In this document: piece after piece, positions 1,623 through 19,160 of the stretch
How the letters are laid out: each line of letters starts with the position of its first letter
How positions within the stretch are numbered: the stretch's first letter is position 1
Source of the DNA: Leptolyngbya sp. Prado105
GTDB lineage: Bacteria; Cyanobacteriota; Cyanobacteriia; Leptolyngbyales; Leptolyngbyaceae
Assembly (NCBI GenBank): GCA_025454375.1
Contig: JALOOO010000001.1
Location: 19,826-83,825, forward strand
Direction: 5' to 3'
Length of the DNA: 64,000 nucleotides
Program-made: the position numbers and the translations under genes
Notes under the pieces: model-generated
What the model saw: the letters and a program-made list of their open reading frames with translations, nothing else
What the model was told of the DNA's origin: nothing
Database searches by the model: none

Positions 1623-4016
1623 TTACTTGCCTTTCGGGTAGGCAATTCGCTGGTGATTCGATTGCTGCCAAACCTGCACAAACACCTCGGCGATCGTTGT
1701 CATTTCCGATCGCGTCAAACCCGATTCATTTAACTGCCCATCTTTCCAACGCGCTGCCAAGATTTTATTAATCATGTTTAACGCATCATCAGGTGTCGCG
1801 TCTTTGAGCGATCGCAGTGCCGCCTCGCAAGAATCTGCTAACATCACAATTCCAGTTTCTCTAGACTGCGGTGAAGGACCGTCATAGCGAAAATCCACGT
1901 CGTCTACGGTGATCGATGAATCCTGCTGAGCGCGTTGTTGGGCTTGATGATGAAAATACCCGATCGTCATTGTGCCTTGATGCTCTGGAATGAACGCCTG
2001 CACGACTTTGGGTAATCTCGCTCGACGTGCCATCACTAACCCTTCAGTGACATGCTTTTTAATAATGGCGGCACTCTGCCAGGGGTCATCGATTAAATCG
2101 TGCTTATTCACTCCGCCCATTTGATTTTCGATGAATCCGAGCGGATCGTGCATTTTGCCAATGTCATGGTAGAGCGTGCCTGCTCTGACGAGTTCCACAT
2201 TGCATCTCAGCGCACGTGCGGCAGCTTCTGCAAGATTCGCGACAAACAAAGTATGTTGAAAAGTTCCAGGGGTTTCTGCGGCAAGTCGTTTTAGCAAGGC
2301 TCGATTAGGATTTGCGAGTTCTACTAAGCGCAAGGTCGTCACCACATCAAACAGATGCTCAAGATAGGGACTAATCCCGATCGCAATAATGCTCCACCCT
2401 AACCCCAACAATCCTTCTAAAACCGCTCCGCCAAGCAACCGATACCAATCCCCAGACAAAGCAGCTAAGACCAAGTACAGAACACCCTGCGTCACCCCGA
2501 CCCCTAACCCTAGAAATGCTAACTCTTCACGCGATCGCACTCTCGCGGCAAGCAATGCTACTGTTAATCCTGCGATCGTGCTGGGAAGCCATTGGGTCAG
2601 GGTCAATCCCATCGCGATCGGCAACATCAGCGCGAGCAGTCCAACACCGGTCACTGCTAGCACAGATCCATAGAACGTCCCCATCAGAACGCCGATCGCA
2701 GGGAGATTGGTCGATGGCGCTTGAATCAGAATCAGCAGCGGCGTACTTAAGCACATCAACCCGACTAGCCAGTAATCTCGATTTCGCAGACCTTTGGGGT
2801 GATAGCGCTGCTCAAGTTGCCAGAAGAGGAGGATAGAGCTACCTACTCCACCAATTAAGCCAATCAAACCCCACCAATTGGTTTCGCGGCGGCTGAGCTT
2901 GAAGTAGTCGAGCAAGATAAAATCATCAGGTGTAATTTCTTGCCCTTGCTTCACAATTACTTTGCCCCGATAGGCATTGACCATGACAGGTTCAACATAA
3001 CTTGCGGCGAGTTCAGCTTGTTGGCGGGTTCGCATTTCGTCTTTAATTAAATTCGGTTTGAGGGCATTGACCAGAATTTGAGCCGCGATCGTTCTTGCTT
3101 CAGGCGGGGTTGCAATTTGCAGATTCAGCGTAATTGCATTTCTCAGTTGGGTTTCTTCTAATCCAGGAGCAATCCCTTGCATCAACATGCGATCGAGCGC
3201 TGCTGTAATCTCGGTTTGAGCTTTCTGCCAAGCGGAATCTGACAGGTCAAACAGGCTCGAATCGTATGGAGCTTGCAGCAGGGAACGGGCTTTGACATAT
3301 CGTTGCTGTGCCGCAATGATTTCATTGGTCAGCCCTGACAAGCCGTCTAATGTCGTTTGATTTTTGTGGCGAAATAGCTCGGATGCTGCTTGACGTTGTG
3401 CCGCATCGGCAAGGCGATCGACAAGTTGAGAATTTGGGGCTTGAGTCGCTTCCCAAATCGCTTTCCATTGCCATTCTTCTGCACTGCGTAAATATCGCTG
3501 AGTCGGTTCTGAGAGTTTTTCGAGTTCAACGAATGGAAATTTGCCAATTTCTTTACGCAGCTTTGTTCCAGTTGCAAGCTGCGATTGAACCGTGCGCCGA
3601 ATTTCATCTGTGATGACGACATCCGGCATATACATCGGAGTCGAAATATTGCGGGCAGCTTTGCGCTTTTCTTCGGTTGCCTGCTTATTTTCGACTTGAG
3701 CATTGCTAGGAGCCTCGATCGTTTCAGGGGCAATTTTCCCTGCGCTCAGGCGCGGCTGATCGTAAAATCGCTGTCCCAATGCCGCCGCTAACACGAGCGA
3801 GGTCAAGGCGATGATCACAGATTTTGGGATTTTTGATTTTTGCCCAAGCGATTTCTTAAGTCCGCTGACTCGCTGTAGCGATCGAATCGACGCGGACTGC
3901 TTTAGATGCTTCCCCGACTCATTGCACACTCGTTGAATTTGTTGCGCCCAAGATCGAAGGGAGTTCATCACTAGCTCACCACCTCGTTGTAATCTTGTGC
4001 AATCTTGATCACACAT
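1623..4016 (-). CDS. HD-family phosphohydrolase with 7TM module (7TMR-HDED/PgpH-like)
   Basis: 797 aa; 'YHDIGKM' HD motif, multi-TM centre, extracytoplasmic N-terminal domain. Confidence 0.85.
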   Translation of the reverse strand: MCDQDCTRLQRGGELVMNSLRSWAQQIQRVCNESGKHLKQSASIRSLQRVSGLKKSLGQKSKIPKSVIIALTSLVLAAALGQRFYDQPRLSAGKIAPETIEAPSNAQVENKQATEEKRKAARNISTPMYMPDVVITDEIRRTVQSQLATGTKLRKEIGKFPFVELEKLSEPTQRYLRSAEEWQWKAIWEATQAPNSQLVDRLADAAQRQAASELFRHKNQTTLDGLSGLTNEIIAAQQRYVKARSLLQAPYDSSLFDLSDSAWQKAQTEITAALDRMLMQGIAPGLEETQLRNAITLNLQIATPPEARTIAAQILVNALKPNLIKDEMRTRQQAELAASYVEPVMVNAYRGKVIVKQGQEITPDDFILLDYFKLSRRETNWWGLIGLIGGVGSSILLFWQLEQRYHPKGLRNRDYWLVGLMCLSTPLLILIQAPSTNLPAIGVLMGTFYGSVLAVTGVGLLALMLPIAMGLTLTQWLPSTIAGLTVALLAARVRSREELAFLGLGVGVTQGVLYLVLAALSGDWYRLLGGAVLEGLLGLGWSIIAIGISPYLEHLFDVVTTLRLVELANPNRALLKRLAAETPGTFQHTLFVANLAEAAARALRCNVELVRAGTLYHDIGKMHDPLGFIENQMGGVNKHDLIDDPWQSAAIIKKHVTEGLVMARRARLPKVVQAFIPEHQGTMTIGYFHHQAQQRAQQDSSITVDDVDFRYDGPSPQSRETGIVMLADSCEAALRSLKDATPDDALNMINKILAARWKDGQLNESGLTRSEMTTIAEVFVQVWQQSNHQRIAYPKGK

Positions 4017-4364
4017 GACCTACGCATCACTCTACTAGGTTTTGAGACATTTGATTAACCCTTTCAACACGAAAAATTTGCGATCGTACTAATCGATAAG
4101 TAAAGTCAACTATTAGTATCAAATCTCATTAATTATTAGCCTATAAAAGTTTTGTAGCCAAACGATAGCAAGAATTATAGGAACAAATTGCATAGAAATA
4201 CTCGTATATTAAGTGAGAATAGTCGCATTAGTGTAAAGCGACTATTCGCCTCTCTGCGAGCTTAGATCGACAAAAATCCGATCCATAATCTAAGGATTTC
4301 CTGAGATTTGAGTGTCAATTTCATTACATAACCTGCTCTGTTTGTCCCCCTATCCGAGATTTTC

Positions 4365-4979
4365 ATGCCACTGACTCATCAATCTTCTAGAAACTCATCG
4401 CTGACCATATCGCTTGTGATGGCTCCTGAGCTTCAGTTTCAGCGAAAAAAACGATTGTCCCTACGTCCTGACTGTCTCTGGGAAATCAAAGAAGGCTATG
4501 TTCGCTCTGTAACGTGGAGTGAATCTGGAGAAGTTGCAACTCTAGGAATTTGGGGCGCGGGTGATCGGATTGGTAAACCGTTGTCTCGGCTGAAATGCTA
4601 TCAGCTTGAATGTTTAACTGAGGTGAGCGCGCAACTCACTCCAACCTCAGATGCCGAAGCTCACGCCGCCTGTATTCACCATACACATCAGACTGAAATC
4701 ATGTTGCGATTGATGCACATTCGATCGACTTCACAGCGACTGCTTCAACTGCTCTACTGGCTTGCCGCCCGATTTGGAACAAGGGTCGATCGAGGATATT
4801 TGCTAGATTTGCCGCTGACGCATCAATTGATTGCTGAAATGATTGGGACGACGAGAGTGACTGTGACCCGAATGCTGAATGACTTTACGCAGAAAAGAAA
4901 GATTTGTCCATTGCCTCGGCGCAAACTGCTGCTGTTATGTGCTGATCTTGCACCCGCCCTAAGCGAATTTGAAATCTAA
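4365..4979 (+). CDS. Crp/Fnr family transcriptional regulator
   Basis: 204 aa; C-terminal HTH 'LPLTHQLIAEMIGTTRVTVTRMLNDF'. Confidence 0.8.
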   Translation: MPLTHQSSRNSSLTISLVMAPELQFQRKKRLSLRPDCLWEIKEGYVRSVTWSESGEVATLGIWGAGDRIGKPLSRLKCYQLECLTEVSAQLTPTSDAEAHAACIHHTHQTEIMLRLMHIRSTSQRLLQLLYWLAARFGTRVDRGYLLDLPLTHQLIAEMIGTTRVTVTRMLNDFTQKRKICPLPRRKLLLLCADLAPALSEFEI

Positions 4980-5031: not shown

Positions 5032-6018
5032 ATGAATTTATCTCTCGTTCTTTGGCTGTTAATCGCTCTGCCAATTCTTGGTGTTGCGCTTTATCTTTTG
5101 ACTCCCCGTCGCTATCAGTCTTCTGACTCTGTTGCAGGCTCCTACGATGAGTGGACAGAGGACGGAATTTTAGAATTTTACTGGGGAGAACATATTCACC
5201 TTGGGCATTACGGAGTGCCGCCGTGCCGCAAAGATTTTCGATTGGCAAAATCGGACTTTGTGCATGAAATGGTGCGCTGGGGTGGACTCGATCGACTCCC
5301 ACCCGGAACAACAGTCTTAGATGTCGGATGCGGCATTGGGGGCAGCAGTCGAATTTTGGCAAAAGATTACGGATTTGATGTCACGGGTGTAACGATCAGC
5401 CCGCAGCAGGTCAAACGCGCTCAGGACTTAACCCCTGCGGGCGTGAGTGCCAAATTTCTCGTAGACGATGCCATGGCGCTGTCTTATCCGGATGCCAGTT
5501 TTGATGTCGTTTGGTCGATCGAAGCGGGTCCACATATGCCCGATAAAGCCAGATTCGCAAGAGAACTGATGCGCGTTCTCAAACCGGGCGGCATTCTTGT
5601 CGTTGCCGATTGGAATCAGAGAGACGATCGCCAAATTCCGCTTAACTTTTGGGAGCGTCCTGTGATGAAGCAACTGCTAGACCAATGGGCGCATCCTGCT
5701 TTTTCGAGTATTGAAGGCTTTTCTGAACACTTAGCCGCAACTGGATTTGTCGAGGGTGAAGTGATCACGGCTGATTGGACAGTCCCGACGCTCCCCTCTT
5801 GGTTCGATTCGATCTGGCAAGGGATTGCTCGACCGAAGGGACTGATCAAATTTGGGGTATCTGGATTAATTAAATCGTTGCGAGAAGTGCCCACCTTAAT
5901 CCTGATGCGAATTGCCTTTGGGGCAGGTCTATGTCGATTTGGCATGTTCCGCGCTCAGCGCAATCCTCTAATTTCTGAACGATCGCAAGACATCTCAACC
6001 GCCACCGCTCACCATTAA
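5032..6018 (+). CDS. MPBQ/MSBQ (tocopherol/plastoquinone pathway) methyltransferase, SAM-dependent
   Basis: 328 aa; N-terminal TM, 'VLDVGCGIGGSSRILAKDYGFDVTGVTISPQQVKRA', closely resembles Synechocystis Sll0418 as remembered. Confidence 0.82.
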   Translation: MNLSLVLWLLIALPILGVALYLLTPRRYQSSDSVAGSYDEWTEDGILEFYWGEHIHLGHYGVPPCRKDFRLAKSDFVHEMVRWGGLDRLPPGTTVLDVGCGIGGSSRILAKDYGFDVTGVTISPQQVKRAQDLTPAGVSAKFLVDDAMALSYPDASFDVVWSIEAGPHMPDKARFARELMRVLKPGGILVVADWNQRDDRQIPLNFWERPVMKQLLDQWAHPAFSSIEGFSEHLAATGFVEGEVITADWTVPTLPSWFDSIWQGIARPKGLIKFGVSGLIKSLREVPTLILMRIAFGAGLCRFGMFRAQRNPLISERSQDISTATAHH

Positions 6019-12939: not shown

Positions 12940-15696
12940 ATGGAAATTCTCTCAGTTAGCCTCAAAAACTTCAAATTCCACAGCGATCGTTCCTTTTCAT
13001 TTCAGCCGGGGACAAATGCGATCTGTGGTGAAAATGGCGCTGGAAAGACCAGCATTCTCGAAGCGATCGCGTGGGTGCTATTTGACTATTCTGGAGCTTA
13101 TACCAAAGACGACCTGATCCGAAATGGCTCCAATAGTGCCCAGGTTGCAGTCAGTTTTATCTCAAGTCGAGATCAGCGAACCTATACGGTTACACGCTGC
13201 ACTCGATCGAGCTACACCCTCTATGATCCAGAACTTGACGAACGGCTGGAATATACCAAGAAAGAAGACGTTTTGCCCTGGCTGAGAGAGCATTTAGGCG
13301 TGCCTGCGGGAACGAATCTAGGGCAACTGTTTCGCAATACGATCGGGGTTCCACAGGGGACATTTGCGATCGATTTTTTAGGCACAGCCGAGGAGCGCAA
13401 AAAAGTCTTCGATCCCATTCTCAAGGTTGAAGAATACAAGAAGGTTTTCAAAGAGCTAGGAGACTTGGAGAAATTTGCAAAAGCTCAATCTGAGAGTTTA
13501 GAGCGTGATATTAAACAGTACGACGAATCGCTTGAGGAATGGGATACGCTCACGACGACTCAGCAAGCTCTAACACAGACGATCGCGCAAATTCAAACCG
13601 ATCTCAAGCATTGGCAGCAGCGGTATGAACAGTTGAAAGACGAGCAAGCAAAATGGAGCGCGATCGAAGCTCAAGTACAACAGACTGGGCTTCAACTCGA
13701 AACGGTTTCGGGGCAAATCCGAGCGGAGCAATTGAATGTTGATCGTTTGCAAGTAGAACTTGATTTTGCGGAAAAATCTGTCACACTCTGCACAGAACGG
13801 CGAGAGAGCTATCAAGCTTACACTCAAGCTGATCAGGCACTCCAAGAGTTCGATCGCGCTCGCACTCAGCAAGAAAAGCTCCTCAAAAAGCGTCAGCAAC
13901 TCACCGAATCACTCGGAACCTATCGGACAAAACTTGCGATTTTGGCTCAGCAAGGCGACCGTCGATCGCAGATCGAAGCAGAGTTAAAACAGCTAGCACC
14001 GCTGATCGAGCAGCAATCGAAACTTGAGCTAGAGCAAACCCAACTGAATGAACAACTCCAGTCCTGTCAAAGCTGGAAGCAAACGATTCAGCGCGATGAG
14101 CAGCGCTTCGCACAACTTCAGCAGCGGCAAAAACAACTCGGAGAAGAGATTGAGCGATTAGAAGGATTAGGCGCGATCGTCAAACAGATTCCTCAACTCG
14201 AAGAGCAACAAAGTCGCTACCAGCAGCAGCTTAGCCGTATCGAAGCGGCAACTCAATTCGACTCAGACCTGCGCCAAATTCTGGCTCAAGCTCAACAGCG
14301 AGAAGAGATTCAAGCCCATCATATTCAGAGTGCAACTCTTACGTTACAAGAATTACAGAAATCAGTTCCGACTTGGCAGCCTCAAATTGAAGCAGTAAAG
14401 TCTGCGATCGCAAATAGCTCTAAACTGAATAAGCATCTGATGCAAGATTTGCAAGGCATTCTAGATGATCTTTCTGAACAACTGCTTGCCGACCGTTTAA
14501 AGCAACGTCTAGTCGAGGTTCAAACTCAACTCAAGACAGTTCGAGAGCAAGAGTCTCAATATCGCAAACTTGAGACGAAATTTGACGAAGAAGAAAAGCT
14601 AGAGCGTGAAATTACAGAACTACGATCGCTGATCACTGAGCATCAATCCCAACTTGCAGCCGAGCCAGCGCTAAGAGAACAACTCGCGCAGATTGCACAA
14701 CAGCTTGAAACTTTAGAAAATCCGCGTGGGCGCAGCACCCTGTTGCAGCGAGACTTAAAAGCACTGGCAAAGCAAGATGCAGAACTGGCTCAAGCTGAAT
14801 CTGACCTGAAGCGAGTCGAAGCGGAGATGAATGCGATCGACCTATCCCTCAAAGCTTTTGAGAACCTAGCCGATCAAATTCGAGAACAGCAACTTCTGCG
14901 CGATCAGCACAAAGAGAACTATCAAATCTACCTCGAACACCAGCAATCCGCCAACAGTTTTAAAGGTCGTAAAACTCAGTACGAAGACGCGATCGTTCAA
15001 CTCAAACAACTCGAAGAAAAGCAAGCAAAACTCACCGATCAAAAAGCTCAACTGACAGAAACCTACGATCCTGAGCAAGTAAACTTGATCAAACTCGGCT
15101 ACGCAGAAGCGAATGATCAGCGAGTTTCGCTCAGTACTCAATTGCCGATGGAATCGCAACGGTTAGAAGAATGCGAAACTCGCCTGTCTAAACTCAAAGC
15201 AATTCAGCAAAAGCGCACTGAAGCACAAGCACAACTCAAACAAAAGCAAAAGACGGAACGCTTCGTCAAATTTGCTCGAAAATCTTATAAAGAAGCGGCT
15301 CCGCGCATTACAGAGCGATATGTTCAGAGCATTTCGCATGAGGCAGATCGTCTATTCCGAGAATTGCTCAATCGTCCTAATGTTGCTCTTGAATGGACAC
15401 GCGACTACGAGATTGTCGTCCAAGAAGGCGCATATTCTCGCAGATTTATTAACCTATCGGGAGGTGAGCAAATGTGTGCTGCTTTAGCCGTTCGTCTCGC
15501 ATTGCTCAAAGTCTTAGCGGATATCAATATCGCATTCTTTGATGAGCCGACGACGAATATGGATCGACCAAGAAGAGAGAGCCTAGCAGAAGCGATCGCA
15601 AATATCAAATCCTTCCGTCAACTCTTTGTCATCAGTCATGATGACACGTTTGAGAAGGTGACTGAGAATGTAATTCTAGTAGAGCGTGAAGCCTAG
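12940..15696 (+). CDS. sbcC: SbcC/Rad50-like SMC-type ATPase (exonuclease subunit)
   Basis: 918 aa; Walker A 'GENGAGKTS', long coiled coil, 'NLSGGEQMCAALAVRLAL' signature, 'IAFFDEPTTNMD'. Confidence 0.85.
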   Translation: MEILSVSLKNFKFHSDRSFSFQPGTNAICGENGAGKTSILEAIAWVLFDYSGAYTKDDLIRNGSNSAQVAVSFISSRDQRTYTVTRCTRSSYTLYDPELDERLEYTKKEDVLPWLREHLGVPAGTNLGQLFRNTIGVPQGTFAIDFLGTAEERKKVFDPILKVEEYKKVFKELGDLEKFAKAQSESLERDIKQYDESLEEWDTLTTTQQALTQTIAQIQTDLKHWQQRYEQLKDEQAKWSAIEAQVQQTGLQLETVSGQIRAEQLNVDRLQVELDFAEKSVTLCTERRESYQAYTQADQALQEFDRARTQQEKLLKKRQQLTESLGTYRTKLAILAQQGDRRSQIEAELKQLAPLIEQQSKLELEQTQLNEQLQSCQSWKQTIQRDEQRFAQLQQRQKQLGEEIERLEGLGAIVKQIPQLEEQQSRYQQQLSRIEAATQFDSDLRQILAQAQQREEIQAHHIQSATLTLQELQKSVPTWQPQIEAVKSAIANSSKLNKHLMQDLQGILDDLSEQLLADRLKQRLVEVQTQLKTVREQESQYRKLETKFDEEEKLEREITELRSLITEHQSQLAAEPALREQLAQIAQQLETLENPRGRSTLLQRDLKALAKQDAELAQAESDLKRVEAEMNAIDLSLKAFENLADQIREQQLLRDQHKENYQIYLEHQQSANSFKGRKTQYEDAIVQLKQLEEKQAKLTDQKAQLTETYDPEQVNLIKLGYAEANDQRVSLSTQLPMESQRLEECETRLSKLKAIQQKRTEAQAQLKQKQKTERFVKFARKSYKEAAPRITERYVQSISHEADRLFRELLNRPNVALEWTRDYEIVVQEGAYSRRFINLSGGEQMCAALAVRLALLKVLADINIAFFDEPTTNMDRPRRESLAEAIANIKSFRQLFVISHDDTFEKVTENVILVEREA

Positions 15697-15803
15697 TCAA
15701 CATAAATTTAATCAATTTGGTAAGAACTCAATCGTTAGAGAGAAGCGATCTCGACACGAACTCTCTAGGCTGAGTCAAGCGATCACATCAAGGATGAGAA
15801 GCG

Positions 15804-15893
15804 ATGAACTCGAAGAGCAGACATTCAAATCCGTTGAAAGATACGATCGCGAGTCTGATGTTGCCGTTAGCCTTGATTGTCGGTGTAGGATGA
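15804..15893 (+). CDS. Possible 29-aa small hydrophobic peptide overlapping the HPP gene start
   Basis: MNSKSRHSNPLKDTIASLMLPLALIVGVG*; its TGA overlaps the ATG of the HPP gene (ATGA). Confidence 0.35.
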   Translation: MNSKSRHSNPLKDTIASLMLPLALIVGVG

Positions 15894-16411
15894 TGAGCCG
15901 AAATCGCACAAGTTTAAAACCGATCGAGGGTGCAAATCGCACGTTAAGACGCAGATTGGGACTAAAGGGTGAACTATTACTGGCAACGGCTCCAACCGCA
16001 GTTGTTTTGGGTGTGCTTGCTTTAGTAGAAGTTCTCAGTCGGCAAAGGCTTTTATTTGCATCTCTCGCAGCAAGCGCATTTTTGATTTATCTTGACCCGC
16101 AACATGGTACAAATTCAGTTCGGACTTTAGTCTCAGCACAGATAATGGCAGCCGTGATTGGCTGGCTCACATTTATGGGCTTCGGAAGTGGATACATTGC
16201 TGCTGGAAGCGCGATGATTCTTACGATCGTGCTGATGATTGTATTAGATATCATGCATCCTCCTGCTGTCGCGACTTCACTCAGTTTTGCACTCAGAGCA
16301 GGCAATGAAAACAATTTGGTTCTCTTTGGGTTAGCCGTTGCGATTACAGCACTATTGGTTAGCTTAGAGCGATTTGCGCTATGGCTGATTGCTCGATATG
16401 AGCGATCGTAG
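15891..16411 (+). CDS. HPP family integral membrane protein (possible nitrite transporter family)
   Basis: 'DPQHGTNSVRTLVSAQ', 'DIMHPPAVATSLSFAL'; start inferred at MMSRNRTSLKP. Confidence 0.8.
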
Positions 16412-16415
16412 GTTT

Positions 16416-17804
16416 CTAGAAGTTGAGATTAAACGTTCTAGCAAGATAGCTTGCATACGACCTCAAACTCGGTAAATATCCCGCACTAATCACTCCAGCA
16501 ACAAAACCTAGAAAATGCCCCCAAGACGCATCTAATGTCGTCGGGAGAATGCCTTTAATCAAGGAGGGATTTTTTGCTGAAAACCAATCTCTTAGCTTAA
16601 TATTGCGCCAAATGCGATCGTACAGCACAACCAGCGCCAATGTCCCAATGAGCAAGAGTGCAGCAGTCAAATTCGCTTCAAAATAATACAACGAGAGTAG
16701 AAAGCCAATATAACCAAAGATCACTGCGCTCGCACCAGCATAACCATATCGTATAGAAAATGCAGTCAGCCAAATCAGCAGCCCACTAATGAGTGTGATT
16801 GCGATACTAATGACAATAAAATCATCTGGCTGAACTAGCACAATCAAGCCTGCAAAGATTAAAAAGACAAGTGTATTCCCTGCTAAATGATTCCAGCCCC
16901 GATGTAAAAACGGAGCGAGAGGAATGCCAATTAACCCCCTCAGTGTCCAAGGACGAATGCCCAAATTAAGGGTCAATGCCCCTCTAAGAATTTGGAAATC
17001 TATAAATGCAGTAATCCAAGCTGCTGCCACAAGTTGAAGTACAATTCTGAATCGATTCCAATAAATGGGTGCATATTGAGCCACTAAAGCTGGAAATCTC
17101 TGACGATAAAATGTCTCATTGATCAGCGTTCCACCAATCATAATGCCAGGGAATTGAGTTGGGAGATTCAGCGCCTGAAGTAACGCGATCGACACAGGGC
17201 GCAAGTTCGGCAAGTAAGCGGCAACAAAAGCTCCCACAATAAACCCAATCAAATGCGCATCCCAGGCAATTCTCGCCCGCCTCATTCTCTCACTGGGCAA
17301 CATGTATCTCAGACTTCCGCCAAAGAAGAAAACGACGATCGCAAGCAAAATAGCAGAAGTAATAGTGCGATCAAAGTAGACCAGAGAAATTAAGAAGCCT
17401 GCATAGCCAAAAAGCAAATCACTCATTCCAGTTGCCCGGACGTTGATAATTTTACCTTGAGGCGTAATTGCAGCAATTCTGCCTAGAAACCATTGTAAAA
17501 TGCCGCTCACGAGCGTAATTGTAAGCGTAATCACAATAAAATCGAGAGGATAACGTAACAGAACTAGCCCGCCCAAGATAAACAGAGCCGTTGTGTTCCC
17601 CTTCAAATGGTTCCAACTACCATGGATAAAAGGAGCCAGAAAAATTCCAATCAATCCAGAAAATGTCCAAGCTTCTGAAACAGGCAAACCCTTTCCAGGC
17701 GGCTTGCGCCAAAATTCGACATCAATCAATGTGAGTATCCAGGCAAGGGCGAACCAACCCAACAGAAATTTGACATTAGCTAGGAGAAGCTCTGATGACG
17801 GCAT
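16416..17804 (-). CDS. Tandem-duplicated rhomboid-like intramembrane protease (two rhomboid modules in one chain)
   Basis: 462 aa; repeat 1 'HGSWNHLKGN','GMSD','AHLIGFIVG'; repeat 2 'HRGWNHLAGN','GASA','GHFLGFVAG'. Confidence 0.8.
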   Translation of the reverse strand: MPSSELLLANVKFLLGWFALAWILTLIDVEFWRKPPGKGLPVSEAWTFSGLIGIFLAPFIHGSWNHLKGNTTALFILGGLVLLRYPLDFIVITLTITLVSGILQWFLGRIAAITPQGKIINVRATGMSDLLFGYAGFLISLVYFDRTITSAILLAIVVFFFGGSLRYMLPSERMRRARIAWDAHLIGFIVGAFVAAYLPNLRPVSIALLQALNLPTQFPGIMIGGTLINETFYRQRFPALVAQYAPIYWNRFRIVLQLVAAAWITAFIDFQILRGALTLNLGIRPWTLRGLIGIPLAPFLHRGWNHLAGNTLVFLIFAGLIVLVQPDDFIVISIAITLISGLLIWLTAFSIRYGYAGASAVIFGYIGFLLSLYYFEANLTAALLLIGTLALVVLYDRIWRNIKLRDWFSAKNPSLIKGILPTTLDASWGHFLGFVAGVISAGYLPSLRSYASYLARTFNLNF

Positions 17805-17867
17805 GATAGTTGCACGAAAACCTGATGTTGAAAGAATATACCTTAACGTCTGGTTTTCTGCGAAAAT

Positions 17868-19160
17868 CTAAGCCCCACTTGTGTAATAGTTTCGAGTCCC
17901 TTTGGCATCGATCGCTTCTCCCAATCGCCGCAACGCATGAACATAGGCAGCCGTTCGGAGCGAAATCGACATCTCTTTTGAAATCGACCAAATCTGCTGC
18001 GCCTCCGCGACCATTTTCTGCTGAAGCGACTGATTTACCTCACCCAACGTCCAATACAACCCATTGCGATTCTGCACCCATTCAAAGTAACTCACCGTCA
18101 CACCCCCCGCATTCACCAAAATATCGGGAAACACATCAATTCCCTTCTCCTCCAAAATGACATCCGCCGCCGAATTCACCGGCCCATTCGCAAGTTCAAA
18201 AATCAATTTAGCCTTGATATTTCTCGCATTTACTTCCGTAATTTGATTCTCTAAAGCAGCAGGCAGCAAAATATCGACATCCAGTGCTAGTAACTCTTCA
18301 TTCGTCAAGCGATCGTGGTCTGCAAGATTACACACACTTCCCTGACAGTAAACCGCCTGAATCTCACGAGTCGAATTCTTGTGCTGCCGAATACTCGGAA
18401 TATCTAACCCATTCTTCGAGTAAATCGCCCCTTTAGAATCACTCACTGCGACAACTTTGCAGCCTGCGCGGTAAGCGAGTTCTGCGATCGTTGCCCCCGC
18501 ATTCCCAAATCCTTGCACCGCAACTGTTGTCTCTGCCGGACGCATCTCAAACTTGGGCAACATCGCCTCGATCGTAAACCAGGCTCCCATCGCCGTTGCC
18601 GCATCTCGTCCCAAACTCCCACCCATCGCGATCGGCTTACCTGTCACCACTCCCGGCACACTCTGCCGCCGAATGATGCTGTACTGATCCATCATCCAGC
18701 CCATCACCATTGCATTGGTATAAACATCAGGAGCCAAAATATCAACATCCGGTCCAATAAAATCCGCGATCGCATCAATATATCCCCGACTTAACCGCTC
18801 CAACTCCAACCGCGATAGTTCCTTAGGATTGACTGCAATTCCTCCCTTTGCTCCCCCAAACGGCAAACTCAAAGCGGCACACTTAAACGTCATCCAAAAC
18901 GCCAAAGACTGCACTTCGTCTAACGTCACATTCGGGTGATAGCGCACGCCCCCTTTTCCTGCTCCGCGCGAGTCGTCATATCGCACCCGATGCCCCTGAA
19001 ACACTTTCAATGAACCATCATCCATTCGCACCGGAATCGATACAGAAAGAGAAGCTTTCGGATACTTCAAAGACTCGATCGCATCTTCTGACAATGGGGT
19101 GTGCTTCAGAGCTTGCTGCAATCGTTGTGAAGCGTCGGCAAATAGGGAAGACATGACCAA
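17868..19160 (-). CDS. gdhA: Glu/Leu/Phe/Val dehydrogenase family protein (glutamate dehydrogenase)
   Basis: 430 aa; 'GGAKGGIAVNPKELS', 'PMGGSLGRDAATAMG', 'VAVQGFGNAGATIAEL'. Confidence 0.9.
   Translation of the reverse strand: MVMSSLFADASQRLQQALKHTPLSEDAIESLKYPKASLSVSIPVRMDDGSLKVFQGHRVRYDDSRGAGKGGVRYHPNVTLDEVQSLAFWMTFKCAALSLPFGGAKGGIAVNPKELSRLELERLSRGYIDAIADFIGPDVDILAPDVYTNAMVMGWMMDQYSIIRRQSVPGVVTGKPIAMGGSLGRDAATAMGAWFTIEAMLPKFEMRPAETTVAVQGFGNAGATIAELAYRAGCKVVAVSDSKGAIYSKNGLDIPSIRQHKNSTREIQAVYCQGSVCNLADHDRLTNEELLALDVDILLPAALENQITEVNARNIKAKLIFELANGPVNSAADVILEEKGIDVFPDILVNAGGVTVSYFEWVQNRNGLYWTLGEVNQSLQQKMVAEAQQIWSISKEMSISLRTAAYVHALRRLGEAIDAKGTRNYYTSGA

Follow-up and report, generated by a model that had tools for sequence, protein, structure and literature searches.

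Rhomboids that have been characterised are, to our knowledge, single-core enzymes; GlpG of E. coli combines one core with a cytoplasmic domain, and the importance of dimerisation for rhomboids is debated. GlpG (E. coli and H. influenzae; PF01694, MEROPS S54) shares its six-transmembrane (six-TM) core and the motifs HxxxxHxxxN, GxS and AHxxG with the protein described here, but has a single core, whereas the present protein carries two in one chain. The gene was found in a 64,000-nt stretch of the Leptolyngbya sp. Prado105 genome (hereafter the window), where a minus-strand open reading frame at positions 16416–17804 begins with ATG and comprises 462 codons, encoding 462 amino acids with no internal stop. 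Its nearest relatives are single-domain cyanobacterial rhomboids of about 200 amino acids (for example L002, from the same genome, and L037), which have the motif context GASG...FGY.GF and SW..H..G in common with it; they differ in having one domain, GASG rather than GMSD, a shorter TM3–TM4 loop and usually a shorter TM5–TM6 region. By all tests available, that is, family profile, catalytic motifs and fold, the product is a rhomboid. We consider that, with a probability of about 60%, it is a tandem intramembrane serine protease of the rhomboid family, a single chain in which two intact cores form a parallel pseudo-dimer and both sites are able to cleave.

The Pfam Rhomboid profile (PF01694) matches the whole protein in two stretches (E = 5.5e-24), and both halves scored alone exceed the curated cut-off of 22.6 bits, with 57.7 bits for residues 1–231 (E = 2e-15) and 39.1 bits for residues 232–462 (E = 1.1e-9). 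Aligned with each other, the halves are 38% identical (E = 2e-34). Pfam matches, AF2 models and fold matches to GlpG in the PDB delineate a six-TM core in half 1 (residues 1–211, positions 17172–17804) and another in half 2 (residues 250–462, positions 16419–17057), both on the minus strand like all parts of the gene. The linker between them (residues 212–249, positions 17058–17171) is defined by helix boundaries and by low pLDDT at residues 217–227. A second full-length tandem, 73% identical, is encoded by Cyanobacteria bacterium FACHB-63 of the same genus (L035/L036, genome G406); this independent genome rules out an assembly artefact, and 67% of the linker region (residues 206–248) is conserved between the two proteins.

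The initial annotation had proposed two full catalytic motif sets in one chain, and every motif it quoted was found at its place. An alignment of the tandem halves with 52 single-domain cyanobacterial relatives locates the HxxxxHxxxN motif of half 1 as HGSWNHLKGN (residues 61–70, with H61, H66 and N70; positions 17595–17624), its serine motif as GMSD (residues 126–129, with S128; 17418–17429) and its histidine motif as AHLIGFIVG (residues 183–191, with H184; 17232–17258). The corresponding motifs of half 2 are HRGWNHLAGN (residues 301–310, with H301, H306 and N310; 16875–16904), GASA (residues 357–360, with S359; 16725–16736) and GHFLGFVAG (residues 429–437, with H430; 16494–16520), the last beginning with A-H in FACHB-63. 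Thus the serine of GxS in TM4, the histidine in TM6 and the oxyanion histidine and asparagine in TM2 are found in both halves, and H150, N154, S201 and H254 (GlpG numbering) are all present, as H66, N70, S128 and H184 in half 1 and as H306, N310, S359 and H430 in half 2. In a profile alignment these residues fall on the active-site motifs of H. influenzae GlpG. None of the 52 single-domain relatives deviates at the H..H...N residues, at the GxS serine or at the H..G histidine, and both halves of both tandems keep them too, although 27% of positions differ between the two proteins. Routine degeneration of one half among homologues, named in advance as evidence against the proposal, was not seen: the sole intact homologue, that of FACHB-63, has lost none of the catalytic residues in either half, and at a third locus nearly the whole gene is gone, rather than one half being degenerate.

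Structure prediction points to a GlpG-like six-TM fold in each half. Half 1 modelled alone (AF2, 44 sequences) reached a pLDDT of 85.7 and a pTM of 0.85, and its leading PDB matches were all GlpG, with a probability of 1.00 or nearly so and a target-normalised TM-score of at most 0.71. The leading matches of the full-length model were also all GlpG, with a probability of 1.00 over about 200 columns; for both models the Foldseek E value against GlpG is only about 0.01 and the rmsd about 4–7 Å. In the full-length model the core of half 2 has a pLDDT mostly above 90 and half 1 is of low to moderate confidence, because the single-domain alignment rows listed all fell on half 2. The overall pTM of 0.57 implies that the mutual arrangement of the halves is not fixed by the model. 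A hydropathy scan gave 14 hydrophobic peaks, one of which lies in the linker (residues 206–224) and is largely non-helical in the models, so the expected number of about 12 TM helices is plausible. With six TM helices per half, the linker is predicted to lie on the N-terminal (cytoplasmic) side.

The two halves are not equally close to their single-domain relatives. Considering the 37 positions that are at least 90% conserved in the 52 single-domain proteins, half 1 keeps 28–29 and half 2 keeps 34, indicating that half 1 is the more divergent half at the level of sequence. Its serine motif is GMSD, compared with mostly GASG in the single-domain proteins, where the alanine before the serine is 100% conserved; half 1 has methionine at this position, and GlpG has leucine. 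The residue after the serine is not always glycine in relatives. The spacing between the equivalents of H150 and S201 is 62 in half 1 versus 51–56 in all single-domain relatives, reflecting an insertion of about 10 residues in the TM3–TM4 loop. In half 2, the spacing between the serine and the histidine is 71 versus a median of 52, owing to about 19 extra residues between TM5 and TM6; spacings of 72–74 occur in a few relatives. The gate-loop insertion of each half is common to both tandems. In a comparison of the two tandems (NG86), dN/dS was 0.09 in half 1 and 0.12 in half 2, rough values as dS is high, indicating similar purifying selection on both halves.

For the origin and action of this protein we propose the following course. 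Before the diversification of the genus, a single-domain ancestor from the local cyanobacterial rhomboid family would have undergone an in-frame duplication or a fusion with a sister copy. The two halves would each form a six-TM core of the GlpG type in which the Ser-His dyad is intact and the oxyanion histidine and asparagine are present. Because the number of TM helices per half is even, both halves would take the same orientation in the membrane, a cytoplasmic linker of about 40 residues connecting them, and both active sites would open to one shared side, periplasmic or lumenal. The result would be a covalent parallel pseudo-dimer of 6+6 TM helices in which either site can cleave TM substrates. 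Thus we infer that the topology is parallel, that both sites are active and that the halves are gated in partly different ways. The loop insertions and the GMSD motif hint at different gates or substrates for the two halves, and a tentative extension, which we would not yet favour, is a two-site rhomboid with diverged gates, each half acting on its own substrates or the two acting in succession on a single one.

The main rival to two working sites is a protein in which half 2 is the working protease and half 1 serves mainly to regulate or to recruit substrates, with little or no activity of its own. Given its departure from the consensus at the serine motif and at 8–9 conserved positions, half 1 may be slow or specialised, and its greater divergence than half 2, together with an H150–S201 spacing outside the range of the single-domain proteins, would fit such a role. 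A precedent for a pseudo-rhomboid beside an intact rhomboid also exists elsewhere in cyanobacteria. In a distant cyanobacterium (L097, G346:C1), two rhomboid genes of the same family are adjacent on the plus strand (1090–1764 and 1932–2594); the first is intact, and the second reads HASFYSVAEN, GAGG and SWEGFLFG, so that the oxyanion histidine, the serine and the dyad histidine are replaced and the product is likely a pseudo-rhomboid partner. These are separate genes, however, the second without the dyad, and the decay of this second copy demonstrates that duplicated rhomboid copies need not stay intact; half 1 of the tandem has not decayed. Its catalytic residues are unchanged in both tandems, its dN/dS is as low as that of half 2, and departures after the serine are tolerated elsewhere: one single-domain relative has GASD, and several have GASI or GASS. 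On balance, we regard a regulatory half 1 as unlikely. Still less probable is a pair of equivalent sites of the same specificity, a linked redundancy kept neutrally or for dosage. Both sites are intact, and the absence or loss of the gene in most of the genus indicates a non-essential role, as this explanation would have it; yet the halves are only 38% identical and represent old, separate lineages, and the gate-loop insertions that differ between them are common to both tandems.

How the chain arose is a separate question, compatible with any of these functional readings. The initial annotation had assumed an internal duplication, and its interpretation as a whole holds up in part. The best trees unite all four halves, with support of 92/83 for the full set and 86/69 without long branches, and place the split between half 1 and half 2 long before the split of the species. 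No DNA-level repeats were found between the halves, so the duplication would be old. Joining half 1 with the single-domain paralogues of the genus is rejected (p-AU 0.025), but joining half 2 with them is compatible with the data (p-AU 0.37), the support for the grouping is weak and long branches may attract one another. The alternative that two diverged sister paralogues were fused, which would give the same protein and the same function, therefore retains an appreciable, though minor, share of the probability; internal in-frame duplication is favoured, not proven.

Among other identities considered, rhombosortase (TIGR03902) was the best NCBIfam match of the tandem (E = 1.2e-11), and 43 of the 44 family members match the same profile at E ≤ 0.001. 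The score of 44.8 bits lies well below the equivalog cut-off of 84, and the assignment was rejected. A search of the genome (estimated 93% complete) for GlyGly-CTERM substrates gave no match over the cut-off.

The tandem occurs in 2 of the 42 genomes of the order that were searched. In overlapping samples of the phylum (386 genomes) and the class (390 genomes), the matches listed, among which a full-length tandem would rank first, included no further one; all other cyanobacterial relatives inspected are single-domain, and Leptolyngbya sp. Prado105 itself also encodes two single-domain rhomboids. Open frames of 398 and 402 amino acids in other genomes proved to contain one rhomboid each behind a non-homologous upstream reading frame. 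Of 31 matching plasmid records, a single one reaches a query coverage of 80% or more (86%, from Nonomuraea), and there one single-domain gene is matched twice; a search of viral contigs with exact-peptide patterns found no relative. The open literature yielded nothing relevant on tandem, double or two-site rhomboid proteases, which is not proof that none exist, and public domain databases may well contain entries with two Rhomboid domains.

Within the genus, an intact tandem is present in 2 of 8 members; as the other 6 lack an intact copy, the gene is dispensable. The locus is anchored by a gene for an SbcC/Rad50-like ATPase (12940–15696, plus strand; Pfam AAA_23, SMC_N). In the window it is followed by an HPP gene, the tandem on the minus strand and gdhA, also on the minus strand; in FACHB-63 the order is the sbcC-like gene, the tandem on the minus strand, DUF1622 and HPP. 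A functional link to gdhA is thus unsupported, with no gdhA beside the FACHB-63 tandem. In G405, the sister of FACHB-63, the last approximately 30 codons of the tandem, with one in-frame stop, lie directly behind the sbcC-like gene (L090, G405:C32:193000-198900, at about 5130–5230), a C-terminal stub of a recently lost copy. In G402, which is the genome closest to that of the window, sbcC adjoins gdhA with nothing between. When the genus tree is rooted at its midpoint, the window genome and FACHB-63 fall on opposite sides of it. Because the tandem occupies the same site downstream of sbcC on opposite sides of the tree, with a stub or nothing in relatives, it was probably present in the ancestor of the genus and then lost several times, which is the simplest reading; interspecies transfer into the same site is a less simple alternative.

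The interval from the sbcC-like gene to gdhA (12940–19160 in the window) is variable across the genus, containing the tandem, HPP, DUF1622 or protein kinase-like genes, or nothing, as in G402. The HPP membrane-protein gene is open in the window (15686–16411) and in G404; in FACHB-63 (L089, about 2870–3368) and G405 (L090, about 4050–4551) it matches in pieces in different frames and looks frameshifted.

Within a widespread enzyme family the tandem is a rare and old variant that has been lost repeatedly; among the species searched, two members of one genus have it, and its novelty is an unusual architecture, not new chemistry. It represents an old duplication after which both sites were retained and neither turned into a pseudoprotease. 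Two different intact cores held at a fixed 1:1 ratio would make it possible to inactivate the sites one at a time and to test cross-talk and specificity; if the gates of the halves have indeed diverged, the protein would be a covalently fixed rhomboid dimer in which each site can be mutated on its own.
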